Shown piece by piece: positions 13,668 through 57,825 of a stretch of DNA of 64,000 nt. Both the position numbers and the translations under genes were made by a program. The stretch is from Anaerofustis stercorihominis DSM 17244 (lineage in GTDB: Bacteria > Bacillota > Clostridia > Eubacteriales > Anaerofustaceae): positions 62,001 to 126,000 of the forward strand of contig NZ_DS560019.1 in the NCBI RefSeq assembly GCF_000154825.1, given 5' to 3'. Within the stretch, counting starts at the first letter, position 1. Every line of letters starts with the position of its first letter. The notes below the pieces were generated by a model that had not been told where the DNA came from, ran no database searches, and saw only the letters and a list, made by a program, of their open reading frames with translations.

Positions 13668-15182
13668 TTAAATTTGATTTATATTCTTATTATATTCCTC
13701 TACAAATATTTTCGCATTTACACTATCGGATATATAATCTCTTGATATACCATTATAGTTCTGACTGGTCTCGGAGCCTTTCCCCAAAATAGATATTATC
13801 GTTTCTTCATTTTTATAGGAATTTACTGCTTCCTTTATGGCTTCTGTCCTATTTTCTATTACTCTGATCTTTTTATACTTAGGAATAAAACTCATGATTT
13901 CAGAACATATATTATCAAAACTTTCATAAAAGGGATCATCCGAAGTAAGGATTATCTCGTCACAGTTTTTATAACAAAGAGTCCCGATCTCTTTTCTTCT
14001 GTTCAAAGCCTTTCCTCCCGGAGCCCCTATTATACAGATATGCTTTTTACCTTTAAATTCATCTTTAACAAATTCAAAATACCTTTTAAGGCTGAGTTCA
14101 TTATGAGCATAATCAACTATCAAAGTTTTCTTCCCGTCTTTGGTTTTATATATCTCTCCTCTGCCTTTTACGGCAGAACCTAAAATACCTTTAAAAATAT
14201 ATTTATAATCGATACATAATATTTCACAAACTATAATAGCAGCTATAGCATTCTCCACATTATATAAACCGCTCATCAAGAGATTATAATTTTTAAGTTC
14301 ACCATTATGAACCAAATCAAATGAAGTAAATCTATTTTTTCTTTTTATATTCATCGCCTTATAATCAGCTTTATCATCAATGGAAAATGTAAAAATTTTA
14401 TCCTTTTCTTTATTATTTAATACTTCGTTTATTTCATCATACCTTAATAAGTCTTTGTTGATCACTATATATTCGCTATTTTCAAGAAGTTTTATCTTTG
14501 AAGAAAAGTAATCATCAAAATCCTTATGTTCTACATCTGAAATATGATCGTATCCAATATTCAAAAATACTCCCACATTAAAATTTGCACCATATACCCT
14601 GCTGTACTTATACGCTATTGAAGAAATTTCACATACAAAATATTCAAGCTCATTATTAACAGCATTATTTAATAACTTATAAAATTCCAGGCTCTCAGGA
14701 GTGGTAAGTAAGGATTCACTAAGTTCACTTCCGTCATAAGTATCGATAGTGGAAATTATACCCGAAGACATTTTACCTTTACTTTTTAAATATAAATCAA
14801 GTATATTTTTAATAAAAAAAGAAGTAGTACTTTTCCCTTTTGTTCCGGTTACCCCGATAAGCTTAAGCTTTTCTGTTTTGTCTGAGTAGAACAATTTAGA
14901 TATGAGTGCAAAAGATTTTCGTACGTCTTTTACTATAATATAAGGTATATTATAGTTATATATTTTTTCACTTATATAAAGACCGCAACCTCTGCTTATG
15001 GCATCTGTTAAGTACTCTTCTTTAAAGTTCAGACCTTTACATACAAATACATCTTTATCTTTTACCGCTTTTGAATTATAAGTAACATCACTTATGATAT
15101 CACTTTGATTTAAAACCTTTATTTCAACTATCTAATTTTCTCTGTTTAGGATATTAATAATATCCTTTACTTTTATATTCAT
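13668..15182 (-). pseudogene. MurE-type Mur ligase with in-frame amber stop
   Basis: The full reading frame starts with ATG at 15182 behind GAGGGAA and runs 504 codons in one frame to 13668, but codon 17 is TAG (15134-15132). The part after the stop still reads as a MurE N-terminal domain (SDVTYNSKAVKDKDVFVC, then RGCGLYISEK), joined to the ATP-binding domain with GTKGKST (113-119) and a C-terminal domain with LGKGSETSQ. MurE adds the third residue, diaminopimelate or lysine, to UDP-MurNAc-L-Ala-D-Glu. The diaminopimelate motif DNPR is not seen; DDPF stands there. No ATG, GTG or TTG follows the stop until TTG at 14894, which would remove the UDP-binding domain. It is probably inactivated, unless the base is an error or the stop is read through. 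Confidence 0.75.
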
Positions 15183-23339: not shown

Positions 23340-24191
23340 TTAATCATCGTCTTCGTCATGATAGTCATCTTCATCATGGTCATCGTCATGGTCGGAGTCG
23401 TGTCTGTCATCTTCGTCATCGTCGTCTTTTTCATACTTATGTTCCTCGCGGTCTTCACGATCTTCCCTTTCATCTTCTTCCTTTTCTCGTTTTTCTTCTA
23501 ACCTGTCTTCTTCTGCTTCTGCTTCATCTTCTCTTTTTTCTCTTGCTTCTTCAGCTTGCTCTTCATGTCTTTCTTTTTCATCTTCCAATAAATCTTCTAA
23601 ATTATCATTGTATTCATCTATTAGTTCATCTACATCTAATTTATTTTCTTTTGCAAACTGTATCAATTCATCTATGCTGTATTTTGATAATTCTTCCAAC
23701 GTTATATTATCTTCATCGTCATTCAACAGTTTTTCTATGATTGCATATTTACCAAACGAAACATTATTATTATGAGCATCTTCTACCATTTTTTCATTAA
23801 ACTGTATATCCTGATTTAATACAAAAGACTTAAGATTGTTTTCGGCAAGTGCCTCGTTTACTTCATCATTAACAACTTTAAGTGCATTTGCAGAATCGGA
23901 TTTACTTCCTGAAACCATGATACAATTTCTCTGACTCTCTTTAACATAACCTGCATTGATCAGTCTGTTCATGATTACCTCAACAACATCATCCAAATCT
24001 TCGTTTGTTGGGTCATATCCCTTTAAAAGCTCCTTTGCGTCTTCATTCACTGTGTTTATTCCAGCTACGTTCCCGAACCTGTTTATTTCGATTTCAAAAC
24101 TTGGATTGACATCAAAGGATATTGCTTTTACGGGCTTCGACATATATGACCATGTGCAAATGCCTATGACTGCTACTGCAATGACTCCCAA
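23340..24191 (-). CDS. RsgI-like membrane protein with hyperacidic tail (second copy)
   Basis: About 283 residues: a short N-terminal membrane segment, then the outer RsgI middle domain opening with SFDVNPSFEI (about 25-34), then an extremely Asp/Glu/His-rich tail over the last 80 residues. In RsgI proteins the N-P bond of DVNPS is an autocleavage site used in signalling, and the N-terminal cytosolic part binds the sigma factor. Here that cytosolic part is missing: the frame opens only at a TTG (24191) with a stop close upstream and no ribosome binding site, while a good AAAGGAG lies about 40 bases before, in another frame. The gene looks N-terminally decayed or frameshifted. It is a tandem relative of the next gene. 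Confidence 0.7.
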   Translation of the reverse strand: MGVIAVAVIGICTWSYMSKPVKAISFDVNPSFEIEINRFGNVAGINTVNEDAKELLKGYDPTNEDLDDVVEVIMNRLINAGYVKESQRNCIMVSGSKSDSANALKVVNDEVNEALAENNLKSFVLNQDIQFNEKMVEDAHNNNVSFGKYAIIEKLLNDDEDNITLEELSKYSIDELIQFAKENKLDVDELIDEYNDNLEDLLEDEKERHEEQAEEAREKREDEAEAEEDRLEEKREKEEDEREDREDREEHKYEKDDDDEDDRHDSDHDDDHDEDDYHDEDDD

Positions 24192-24302
24192 ACATGTGAA
24201 TTAATTTTTTTTGTATTTTTCTATTTTTATGTTCTCCTTTTTTTCCTATTTATATATATAACTAAGGAAGAGAACATTTTATTGCATTAAATTTCAAATT
24301 AT

Positions 24303-25325
24303 TTAATCATCTTCTTCTCTTTCGACTTCATCCTCATCATCGTCTTCATTGTTACTGTCTTTCTCGTCATCTTCGTCATCGTCATCACTTTTATTTTTAT
24401 TCTTATTGACTACGGTTTTCTTTTTATTATCATCGTCATCTCTTTCTTCTTTTTCATCATCGCTGTCGTCATCTTTCTCGTCATCCCTGTCATCATATTT
24501 ATCATCATAATCGTCTTTATAGCTGCTATTTTTAGGGACATCTCTTTTTATGACATTCTTAACCTTCTTTTTATCCTTAACTTCTATAATGTCGTCTTTA
24601 TCATCATCAGTCAAATCGTAATATATTTCAATAAGTTTCTTTACAGAGTATTTTTTAAGTTTATTAATATCTCTGTTAGGGCTTAACTTGATTATCCTTT
24701 GAATCAATTTATATTTTCCAAGAGACATATTGTAATTTTTAGCTATCTCTTTTGCAGATTTATCATCGTCATAAAACTGTTTTAAAATAATGGAATCTAT
24801 ATCATATTTAGATAGGTAATCATAGATATCGTCATCTAAGCTGTTTAAAAGTTCTTTGCTTTCTTCCAGTCTTTTATTATCGGAAGACAACATCATGAAA
24901 TCATACCCCTTTACAAGATATTTATTTTCTATCATTTTATCCAATATCATGTTTACAACTACTTTTATATCTTGATTTTTATAATCCAGAGAAGATATTA
25001 TCTTCTTTGCGTCATCATTATAAACTTCTATATCAATTACTTTATCTTTCTTATTCGTTACTATTTCCATACTCGGATTCACATCAAAATCAACTAAGTT
25101 ATAAGGCATAAGATTTTGAGAATACCAAAATACAAATATGATCAAACAACATGTAACGGCACTAAGTGCGGGAGCAAAAAACTTTTTAAAATCAAATTTC
25201 TTTTTATCAGATGTTATTTCATCATCTTCTTCCATTTTGATGATAGCTTCTTCATAAAGTTCGTCCGGATCCAGTAAAGGAGCTTGATATATCGCGTTCT
25301 TTAGCTTTTCTTCATATTTATTCAT
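24303..25325 (-). CDS. RsgI-like transmembrane anti-sigma factor with acidic tail
   Basis: 340 residues in the layout of an anti-sigma factor: cytosolic N-terminal region (1-49), one transmembrane segment (about 50-69), an outer RsgI-type middle domain starting with DFDVNPSMEI (79-88, containing the N-P autocleavage pair), and a C-terminal tail of about 90 residues made almost only of Asp, Glu, Lys and Asn. Its start overlaps the end of the sigma gene by 8 bases, the usual coupling of a sigma/anti-sigma pair. RsgI tails normally carry carbohydrate-binding or other sensor domains; here the acidic tail could bind cations or basic wall polymers, which is inference. Confidence 0.85.
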   Translation of the reverse strand: MNKYEEKLKNAIYQAPLLDPDELYEEAIIKMEEDDEITSDKKKFDFKKFFAPALSAVTCCLIIFVFWYSQNLMPYNLVDFDVNPSMEIVTNKKDKVIDIEVYNDDAKKIISSLDYKNQDIKVVVNMILDKMIENKYLVKGYDFMMLSSDNKRLEESKELLNSLDDDIYDYLSKYDIDSIILKQFYDDDKSAKEIAKNYNMSLGKYKLIQRIIKLSPNRDINKLKKYSVKKLIEIYYDLTDDDKDDIIEVKDKKKVKNVIKRDVPKNSSYKDDYDDKYDDRDDEKDDDSDDEKEERDDDDNKKKTVVNKNKNKSDDDDEDDEKDSNNEDDDEDEVEREEDD

Positions 25326-25911
25326 ATCTTACTCCTTTCTTTTCTAGAATATTTTTAAGTTTTTTTAATCCTCTGTTATATTTTGATAAAACCGTAGACA
25401 GCGGCAGTTTTAAATCCTCCGCGATTTCTTTATGCTTAAGTCCCGATATCGCATGAAGTAAAATTATGCTCCTCTCTTCATTAGAAAGTTCTTTAAGTAC
25501 GGTAATAAGAACCATTTTATCCTCAACGTCCGTCACATAAGAAAAGCTTAGATCATTTTCTATATCGGGTTTATCAGAATACAAGGTCCTTTTATTTTTG
25601 GTTATTTTGGTCATTGCAAGGTTTCTTGCAATGGTGAATACCCACGCCATAGGTTTATTCATGGGTTTATAAAGATGAGCCGCCGATCTTATTTTTATAT
25701 ATGTGTCATGAAGGACGTCCATAGTATCTTCATGATTTTTTAAAAATGATAGTATATAAGCATATAAGACTTTATCTGTAGCGTAATAAAACTTTTCAAA
25801 GGCTTCTTTGGAATTCTTACCTATTTCCATTATCATATCGTCATCTATAGGTATTTCCTTATTAGAATTTACGCTCTCGGCTCCTCCCAGAACTTCAGCA
25901 AAAAGTAACAT
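25318..25911 (-). CDS. Sigma-70 family (ECF/SigI-like) sigma factor
   Basis: 197 residues with sigma region 2 (about 36-105, including HEDTMDVLHDTYIKI and AWVFTIARNLA) and region 4 (about 140-190, LSNEERSIILLHAISGLKHKEIAEDLKLPLSTVLSKYNRGL), with no region 3, as in ECF sigma factors. It heads a minus-strand group with the two RsgI-like proteins, whose cytosolic domain would hold it inactive until an outer signal. The ATG follows AGAGGGGAAATT. No autoregulated promoter could be recognised upstream because the recognition sequence of this sigma is unknown. Confidence 0.93.
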   Translation of the reverse strand: MLLFAEVLGGAESVNSNKEIPIDDDMIMEIGKNSKEAFEKFYYATDKVLYAYILSFLKNHEDTMDVLHDTYIKIRSAAHLYKPMNKPMAWVFTIARNLAMTKITKNKRTLYSDKPDIENDLSFSYVTDVEDKMVLITVLKELSNEERSIILLHAISGLKHKEIAEDLKLPLSTVLSKYNRGLKKLKNILEKKGVRYE

Positions 25912-55716: not shown

Positions 55717-57066
55717 ATGTTTTACATCGATATGATAATATCAAAATTAATAATATTTTTAATAAACATTATTGATAAAAGCAGAGGAACGGATCTGCCG
55801 GGAAAAATCGCTTTAAAACTTAATAAAAACTTCCCGCTGGGATTTAAAAATATAGATTACGATAAGGTGATTTTCGTAACGGGGACCAACGGAAAATCCA
55901 CAACGACGAATTTGATACATCACGTACTTAAATCAAATGATTTCAGCGTAGCTTCAAACCTTGAAGGAGCGAACCTTATAGCGGGTATCACGACGACACT
56001 TATCAAAAACTCAACAATAACAGGAAAATTAAAACCTGAATACTTCGTATTTGAAATAGATGAAAGGTCTCTTAAGAATATACACAGAGTTATTCCCGCA
56101 AAACACTTGGTGATAACAAATCTTCAAAAAGACCAGGTACACAGAAATGCCGACCCCGATTTTATCTTAAGGAAAATAAAAGATGTAGTCAAAGAAGATA
56201 TGCACTTATACTTAAATAATGAAGAACCGAGAAGCAAGTCTTTTGAAGACAGTGCCGATACGGTCACCTACTACAGCGTAGATAAAAATTCAAGGTCTGT
56301 AGTCGATGAAGACAGACTCGGAGTAACGATGCCTTGTCCTAAATGCAACCATAAAATCAATTTCAATTATTATAATGTAGACAACGTAGGAGATTTTAAC
56401 TGTACAAACTGCGGGTTCAAAAGTAAAGAAACCCCTAAATACCAAATGAAAGATGTGGATTTCGAAAACGCAACTTTCACATACGACGGGACAACATTCA
56501 AAATGCCTTACAACGTTCCTTTCATGATGTATAACTACGCACTTGTTATCGCTCTCGGAGATACACTTGGGCTTACAAAAGAACAAATGCAGCATTCTTT
56601 CAACACCTTTATAAATATCGGCGGAAGAATAGAGACTATAAAATACAAAGATAAAGAACTTAAATATATAAGGATAAAACAGGAAAACCCTGAAACTCTC
56701 CAGTCTGCAATAGATGTAGTGGCAAATGACAAGGAAGAAAAGACTTTTATTTTGGGACTTTGTATAATAAAAGACGAACCGCCTCACTATACAAATACAT
56801 TTTACGCTTACGACTGCAACTTCAATGAACTGGTAAACTCGAACGTAAAAAAATACATCGCCTTTTCGGAATATGTATGCTACGATACGGCAAACAGATT
56901 CGTATATGAAGGTGTGGATAAAGAAAAAATAGCTGTTTTAAACACGGATAATGTTGAAAAGATACTTGAAGAAGTGGATAAAGCAGGATGTAACAATGTG
57001 TACTTGATAACATGGCTAGAAACATTTATAGACATCAAAAATTACGTTAAGAAAAACAATTTATAG
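55717..57066 (+). CDS. murT: MurT-like Mur ligase, divergent
   Basis: 449 residues. Like MurT it has the Mur ATP-binding domain (VTGTNGKST, 54-62), a Cys4 zinc ribbon (Cys207, 210, 229, 232) inserted in the central domain, and a C-terminal MurT-type domain. MurT, with the glutaminase GatD, amidates the second-position glutamate of lipid II. Differences from the usual family: the NPAGxNQ-type segment reads ENPETLQ (323-329), and the LNDNxADGRDVSWIWD-type segment reads IIKDEPPHYTNTFYAYD (350-366). It is coupled to gatD by 9 bases. The ATG at 55717 follows GAGGTAAGTAGT. Confidence 0.8.
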   Translation: MFYIDMIISKLIIFLINIIDKSRGTDLPGKIALKLNKNFPLGFKNIDYDKVIFVTGTNGKSTTTNLIHHVLKSNDFSVASNLEGANLIAGITTTLIKNSTITGKLKPEYFVFEIDERSLKNIHRVIPAKHLVITNLQKDQVHRNADPDFILRKIKDVVKEDMHLYLNNEEPRSKSFEDSADTVTYYSVDKNSRSVVDEDRLGVTMPCPKCNHKINFNYYNVDNVGDFNCTNCGFKSKETPKYQMKDVDFENATFTYDGTTFKMPYNVPFMMYNYALVIALGDTLGLTKEQMQHSFNTFINIGGRIETIKYKDKELKYIRIKQENPETLQSAIDVVANDKEEKTFILGLCIIKDEPPHYTNTFYAYDCNFNELVNSNVKKYIAFSEYVCYDTANRFVYEGVDKEKIAVLNTDNVEKILEEVDKAGCNNVYLITWLETFIDIKNYVKKNNL

Positions 57067-57075
57067 GAGAGAAAA

Positions 57076-57825
57076 ATGGGAAAAGAAATAAATTTAGCTT
57101 ACCTATATCCGGATATATTAAATCTTCACGGCGACAGAGGAAACGTCCTTGCTTTTGAAAAGGCAGCAAAAGATATGGGGATCGAGTTGGTAACAACAAG
57201 GATAGACAGTATCAGCGAGAAAATAGATTTTGATAAGTTTGATATTATCCTTTTGTCTCCGGGAGAACTGAAAGTAATGGATACCATAGCAAATGCTTTC
57301 GATAAACAAAGAGACGAACTGGAAAAATATATAGAAGAAAACAAATATTTATTCGTTATCGGGACTACGGGGGCGATACTGGCAAAAGATATAATATTTG
57401 AAAACGGAAACAAAAAAGAAGGTCTAGGTATCTTCGATATGACAGCGGAGGAAAGAAGCTCCATATACGGAGACGATTTGACATTCAATGCAGATATAAA
57501 CGGACAGGAAATGGAAATAATCTCTTGCCAGATAAATTCCATAAACATGAAATTTAATACGGATATAACTCCTTTCGGAAGGGTAACTTACGGATACGGA
57601 AATGACAGCGAACATAAAGAAGGAGCAAGAAGAAACAATCTTATTTACACAAATGCTTTGGGACCGGTATTTATTAAAAACCCTTGGATGACCCAGGAAA
57701 TAATCATTGATATAGCTGATAAAAAAGGTATTGACGTAGAAAACAAAGACTTGGATTTTTCTTTAGAAATAGCGTCAAAAGAAACAATAAAAGATTTTAT
57801 CAGTAAAAAGGAAGCGGTAAAATAA
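57076..57825 (+). CDS. gatD: GatD-like protein lacking glutaminase active-site residues
   Basis: 249 residues, class I amidotransferase (CobB/GatD) fold: LAYLYPDILNLHGDRGNVLAFEKAA at the start is the family opening, and YTNALGPVFIKNP near 191-203 is the family C-terminal block. The usual nucleophile segment (CGGYQ) reads GTTGAI (96-101), so the catalytic Cys is absent; the usual HGP triad His is Leu195 (ALGP). It therefore should not hydrolyse glutamine. Whether it is an inactive structural partner or serves another reaction is not clear. It follows murT by 9 bases and ends at a strong terminator. Confidence 0.85.
   Translation: MGKEINLAYLYPDILNLHGDRGNVLAFEKAAKDMGIELVTTRIDSISEKIDFDKFDIILLSPGELKVMDTIANAFDKQRDELEKYIEENKYLFVIGTTGAILAKDIIFENGNKKEGLGIFDMTAEERSSIYGDDLTFNADINGQEMEIISCQINSINMKFNTDITPFGRVTYGYGNDSEHKEGARRNNLIYTNALGPVFIKNPWMTQEIIIDIADKKGIDVENKDLDFSLEIASKETIKDFISKKEAVK

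Follow-up and report, generated by a model that had tools for sequence, protein, structure and literature searches.

The murT-gatD locus of Anaerofustis stercorihominis

The window analysed here is a stretch of 64,000 nucleotides from the genome of the gut bacterium Anaerofustis stercorihominis DSM 17244 (contig NZ_DS560019.1, positions 62,001 to 126,000). Towards its end lie two adjoining genes whose products resemble the subunits of lipid II isoglutaminyl synthase, the ligase MurT and the glutaminase GatD. The main features of the pair, with residues placed by alignment, are:

55717..57066, + strand: murT-like gene, 449 amino acids, Mur ligase with Cys4 zinc ribbon
55879..55902, + strand: MurT P-loop TGTNGKST, kept
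56335..56412, + strand: MurT Cys4 zinc-ribbon segment, C207 to C232, kept
56677..56703, + strand: MurT loop KQENPETLQ, longer by two residues than the KNPAGxNQ that it replaces
56794..56796, + strand: MurT Asn360 at the place of the S. aureus triad residue Asp349 (role of D349 as reported in PMC6113224)
57076..57825, + strand: gatD-like gene, 249 amino acids, without the glutaminase residues
57358..57375, + strand: GatD IGTTGA (residues 95-100), the former nucleophile elbow, with Gly96 for Cys94
57658..57660, + strand: GatD Leu195 for His189

Both frames are open. That of murT stops with TAG at 57064-57066, overlapped by a GGAG that precedes the gatD ATG at 57076. A murT start at 55717 fits the relatives better than the longer frame from 55669; in the resulting 449-residue numbering, Asn360 is N376 of the 465-residue form.

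Assignment to the family is clear for the ligase, which has the P-loop, the Mg-ligand Glu, the four Cys, a MurT_C domain (62.4 bits in Pfam, against a cut-off of 25) and an adjacent gatD, and which matches S. aureus MurT (PDB 7q8e) with an E-value of 3.5e-47. The second protein matches S. aureus GatD (6gs2; E 5.3e-24) and scores 19.7 bits with Pfam GATase_3, below the cut-off of 27. For both proteins the best NCBIfam models are the subunits of lipid II isoglutaminyl synthase, with cut-offs that are missed by far (MurT, 174.7 and 156.1 bits of 800; GatD, 93.2 of 450 and 83.4 of 400). AlphaFold2 models built from an input of three near-identical sequences were poor (mean pLDDT 51.7 for GatD and 42.4 for MurT). 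The host genome of 2.28 Mb holds a single MurT_C place, and a single place is likewise found with the window GatD as query; neither search found a second, canonical murT-gatD pair, which the preliminary description of this locus, made from the letters alone, had proposed looking for.

Elsewhere in the window, at 23340-25911 on the minus strand, a sigma-factor-like gene is followed by genes for a pair of related proteins whose long tails are rich in Asp and Glu; judging by their sequences, these are possibly anti-sigma factors.

Residues lost, rebuilt and kept

Alignment with the S. aureus proteins places Gly96 of the window GatD at the nucleophile Cys94, Leu195 at His189 and Ile130 at Arg128, the residue that captures glutamine. 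The partner has changed as well: Asp349 of MurT, which in S. aureus is lent to the GatD triad, is Asn360, the NPAGMN segment has become KQENPETLQ in a loop two residues longer, and DGRDTSWIYD reads HYTNTFYAYD. Kept in MurT are the P-loop, E113 (S. aureus E108) and Cys 207, 210, 229 and 232. The preliminary description had reported a GTTGAI segment and Leu195 in GatD, a P-loop and Cys4 ribbon retained in MurT, and the absence of NPAGxNQ and DGRDVSWIWD; alignment bears out each of these readings.

Several of these positions have been mutated in the S. aureus enzyme. The GatD variants R128A, C94A and H189A are reported to show no glutamine deamidation (PMC5871853), C94G to abolish glutamine-dependent amidation (PMC3266927), and MurT D349N to abolish catalysis (PMC6113224).

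Conservation and selection

A MurT_C match is present in 55 of the 67 genomes of the order, at 61 places in all. Sixty of these were aligned together with their GatDs, leaving out the second MurT of genome G056 and excluding duplicates (L001, L002, L006, L007, L072, L073), and they fall into three groups: 43 are window-like (F1), nine form a second Cys-less group (F2), and eight are canonical. Canonical pairs have CGGYQ, HG and mostly DGTDVSW; F2 GatDs have mostly TGNAxE with LGP or similar. The groups can occur together in one genome. Genome G009, of the same family as Anaerofustis, has three MurT-GatD pairs, all Cys-less (L016, L057 and L062; two F2, one F1), G055 has a canonical and a Cys-less pair (L065), and G056 a canonical pair and its second MurT.

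Within F1 the replacements are essentially fixed. Cys94 is Gly in 43/43 GatDs and His189 is Leu in 42/42, position 128 is never Arg, and Asp349 of MurT is Asn in all 43. The ATP site, by comparison, is retained, with E108 in 43/43, the P-loop Lys in 41/41 and N267 in 42/43. New residues have been fixed in the MurT C-domain (465-residue numbering): Y374, N376 and Y379 are each found in 43/43 and R335 in 42/43, and these four together with Q338 and E339 are each present in 41 to 43 of the 43 F1 MurTs. Such recurrence of the same replacements in 43 sequences rules out sequencing error.

A displaced catalytic triad was considered in the preliminary description as something that would undo its reading. 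The 43 F1 GatDs have no Cys column in common; Cys occupies one column in 25/43 and another in 27/43, and the window protein has Cys at neither. A set of 12 diverse GatDs contains no invariant Cys or His. A His does recur at the position of S. aureus Tyr17, in 37/43 F1 GatDs (the window's included), 0/8 canonical and 0/9 F2. In the window it is His18 (57127-57129), which adjoins the former active site.

Comparison within the genus indicates that both genes are maintained. The frames are open in all three Anaerofustis genomes, that is, in two strains beyond the one that carries the window; the disruption in related strains that the preliminary description named as a refutation is not seen in these. 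Identity to the A. stercorihominis loci L006 and L007 is 97% and 92% for MurT and 94% and 79% for GatD. For gatD, dN/dS is 0.09 in the comparison with L006 and 0.07 in that with L007; for murT it is 0.04 with L006, the synonymous sites being saturated with L007. The Anaerofustis pair is a real and conserved glutaminase-less variant of MurT/GatD that is under constraint and not decaying. The preliminary description had argued from the joint divergence of the two partners that they had co-evolved toward another reaction. Constraint in place of decay is well supported by the dN/dS values, the fixed replacements, the searches that found no canonical pair in the genome, and the open frames; that the divergence led toward another reaction is a matter of interpretation, taken up below.

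Phylogeny and wider distribution

A quick maximum-likelihood tree of MurT was computed from 104 rows, comprising S. aureus MurT and 103 of 109 loci; the other six (L160, L169, L182, L184, L187, L188) were fragments or had no usable MurT. The preliminary description had called for a tree of the pairs that lack the Cys, and here nearly all of the window-like group comes together: of the 42 rows that carry the F1 label, 41 fall within a single 44-row branch, for which the SH-aLRT support is 100%. Three loci to which the motif rule gave other labels (L018 and L019 "F2", L068 "other") are placed by the tree in this main clade. A minimum of five changes between Cys-bearing and Cys-less states is needed on the tree, whose deeper joins are unsure and whose branches there are long.

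An F1 profile run on 391 sampled genomes of the class gave 14 genomes with at least 211 bits, the next scoring 146. Twelve of the 14 belong to the order. The remaining pair of genomes, G510 and G788, have a GatD without the Cys and His and a MurT with YTNTFY, as in F1. Among the 16 next-best loci that were read (L216-L231), 15 have both Cys and His and one is F2-like.

In a sample of the phylum, 137 of 398 genomes matched. Eleven of 49 loci read there are Cys-less, a count that is not a frequency, since the loci comprise the 29 best-scoring and 20 mostly chosen for low score. The His is kept in L174, L175 and L179 and is Gln in L178, L182 and L183. In four of these loci, L178 (G109), L179 (G138), L182 (G309) and L183 (G333), the Cys is replaced by Gly, Ala, Ala and Ser, respectively, and the His by Gln in three of the four; these are perhaps independent losses of the Cys. 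Family f30 (L174, L175, L177) has a separate lineage of Cys-less GatDs that adjoin an amidohydrolase gene and retain the catalytic His in two of three cases. One genome, G304, carries a canonical and a Cys-less pair together (L176, L177).

Neighbouring genes and the MurE motif

A glmM motif lies within 1.5 kb downstream of the pair, directly or after another gene, in 24/43 F1 loci, 0/8 canonical and 0/9 F2 loci; for many of the loci the sequence available beyond the pair amounts to no more than some 1.4 kb. As the 24 come from a single family, they represent one conserved arrangement. In Eubacterium- and Acetobacterium-like genomes a gene stands between gatD and glmM; it was considered as an amide ligase and rejected, as its product passes the cut-offs for the tRNA thiolase MnmA. 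In genus g26, murE is found near MurT-GatD in three of four genomes.

The substrate motif of MurE provides a possible view of the stem peptide. DNPR is the form usual for meso-DAP. The open MurE of Anaerofustis has this motif, which suggests that its stem may contain meso-DAP. Across the order, DNPA occurs in genera g13 and g15, which carry the Cys-less pair, DNSR in eight canonical genomes, and DNPR in six genomes of family f2 that are without MurT. Two exceptions are Anaerofustis itself, with DNPR and a Cys-less pair, and G059, with DNPR and an F2 pair; in addition G058, 97% complete, has the Eubacterium-like DNPA, and no MurT_C match was found in it. The association between MurE motif and MurT state is thus only suggestive.

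The window contains a second MurE-like gene (13668-15182, minus strand) with a P-loop GTKGKST, the motif DDPF and an in-frame TAG at codon 17. A related second MurE is open in G007 (523 residues), and none is found in G008 at E 1e-60.

Wall type in Eubacterium and Acetobacterium

Peptidoglycan of type B has its cross-bridge leaving from the alpha-carboxyl of D-Glu, the very group that MurT/GatD amidates, and Acetobacterium woodii is an organism with such a wall. The MurT-GatD of genome G036, taken as A. woodii, is F1. So is the sole MurT_C place in G042, taken as Eubacterium limosum ATCC 8486, where the only other match to the GatD profile (30 bits, in a 500-residue frame) is probably cobyric acid synthase. 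At the level of the genus, type B2alpha is listed for Eubacterium alongside type A forms (PMC11382707, Table 1), and the wall of the E. limosum type strain is reported to contain Ala, Glu, Lys, Orn and Ser (PMC4791908). The discoverers of GatD/MurT stated that homologs are encoded only by bacteria with reported amidated peptidoglycan (PMC3266927). An organism from a type B genus whose sole homolog is glutaminase-dead departs from this rule in an informative way. A literature search found no wall type for Anaerofustis, nor any wall papers on Acetobacterium or Pseudoramibacter.

A possible exchange of nucleophile

In the other Mur ligases the nucleophile is an amino acid. The simplest route to an alpha-linked bridge would be for the F1 ligase to use one too, and this is the reading favored here. 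MurT would bind ATP and activate the alpha-carboxyl of D-Glu at stem position 2, as is thought for the canonical enzyme; a free amino acid would then attack the acyl phosphate through its amino group, as in MurC to MurF, taking the place of ammonia made by GatD. In the product, the D-Glu alpha-carboxyl would bear this amino acid as the starting residue of a type B cross-bridge. GatD would have lost glutamine hydrolysis and persisted as a required, non-catalytic partner, and the C-domain of MurT would be altered so as to hold the amino acid. With such a nucleophile at the acyl phosphate, the glutaminase residues would be free to change and the MurT C-domain would have to. This scheme fits the fixation of new residues in a MurT whose ATP site is intact. 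Retention of a dead GatD is explained if the ligase needs it, since in S. aureus each subunit alone is reported to be inactive with any nitrogen donor (PMC3266927).

That MurT has come to ligate an amino acid in place of ammonia, and GatD to serve as its non-catalytic partner, we hold to be close to an even chance, if short of it. For the full reading, in which the glutaminase-less pair is the enzyme for the alpha-linked bridge of type B walls, we would put the probability at roughly 0.42. In its favor count the joint loss of the glutaminase residues in 43/43, the kept ATP site, the new residues of the MurT C-domain, the low dN/dS, the type B listing of Eubacterium, the glmM and murE neighbours in relatives and the presence in E. 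limosum of an F1 pair only; against it count DNPR in the Anaerofustis MurE, DNPA without MurT in G058 and the coexistence of canonical and Cys-less pairs in G055. The nucleophile, the carboxyl acted on and the role of GatD are the parts of this reading that we infer.

The main rival, unlikely on present evidence, is an isoglutaminyl synthase that amidates the D-Glu alpha-carboxyl with free ammonia and keeps GatD for structure, for which the ammonia-using carbamoyl phosphate synthetase I offers a parallel. Direct biochemical support comes from the S. aureus MurT/GatD C94G complex: it carries the identical Cys to Gly change and is reported to amidate lipid II with NH3 at pH 8.5, a result that also counts against the amino acid reading, but it made no use of ammonia at pH 7.5 (PMC3266927, Table 2). 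An ammonia user, moreover, would have no need of rebuilt MurT loops. The alpha-carboxyl of type B walls is occupied by the bridge (for the type scheme see PMC11382707), and E. limosum has the F1 pair only. The preliminary description had offered free ammonia, another amine or another substrate; an amino acid as the amine is now the best supported of these, by way of the reported Eubacterium type B wall, with ammonia persisting as a competitor.

Scarcely more probable than ammonia is some other substituent, with D-Glu capped by glycine or a small amine outside the cross-bridge, or another carboxyl of the muropeptide modified. An alpha-glycine is known in Micrococcus luteus, the MurE motif of Anaerofustis suggests a DAP stem, and Cys-less GatDs in several lineages (the 11 of 49 loci noted above, partly low-score picks) may differ in substrate; there is no positive evidence for such a product here. 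It is improbable that the pair has become a regulatory or non-peptidoglycan ligase descended from MurT/GatD: scores far below the NCBIfam cut-offs would accord with this, but in relatives the genes are syntenic with glmM and murE, and in E. limosum they replace the canonical pair. Decay into pseudoenzymes, to which the loss of the glutaminase residues might point, is highly improbable, given that both frames are open in each of the three Anaerofustis genomes, that dN/dS is 0.04-0.09 and that the replacements are fixed in 43 sequences.

Should the pair indeed use an amino acid, it would be a candidate for the step that sets type B peptidoglycan apart, and could account for the way in which an unusual kind of bacterial wall is made. 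A literature search found no enzyme named for the alpha-linked type B bridge step and no description of a glutaminase-less MurT/GatD variant. The proposed role is testable, as Acetobacterium and Eubacterium are reported to be engineerable (PMC12345282).

Comparison with known systems

The closest known system is the MurT/GatD lipid II isoglutaminyl synthase of S. aureus, S. pneumoniae and M. tuberculosis, with which the window pair shares gene pairing and order, a Cys4 Mur ligase, the ATP site and overall sequence. It differs in the replacement of GatD Cys94, His189 and Arg128 and of MurT Asp349, and in the rebuilding of the NPAG loop and the DGRD-SWIWD segment; for the F1 clade, "lipid II isoglutaminyl synthase" is probably a misnomer. 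The likeness to MurC to MurF lies in the fold family and the proposed amino acid nucleophile, whereas MurT lacks their UDP-binding N-terminal domain (PMC6113224) and would act on another substrate carboxyl. Archaeal MurT-like proteins provide a further case of a MurT relative uncoupled from glutaminase activity, but these are described as having no GatD (PMC11915815), and here GatD is present and conserved. The laboratory mutant GatD C94G shares the Cys to Gly change and is reported to keep its complex with MurT (PMC3266927); in the window the His, the Arg and the MurT Asp are replaced in addition, and the substitution has become fixed throughout a clade. The F1 pair is in this sense a natural, evolved counterpart of that mutant, and offers a test of what GatD does beyond the production of ammonia.
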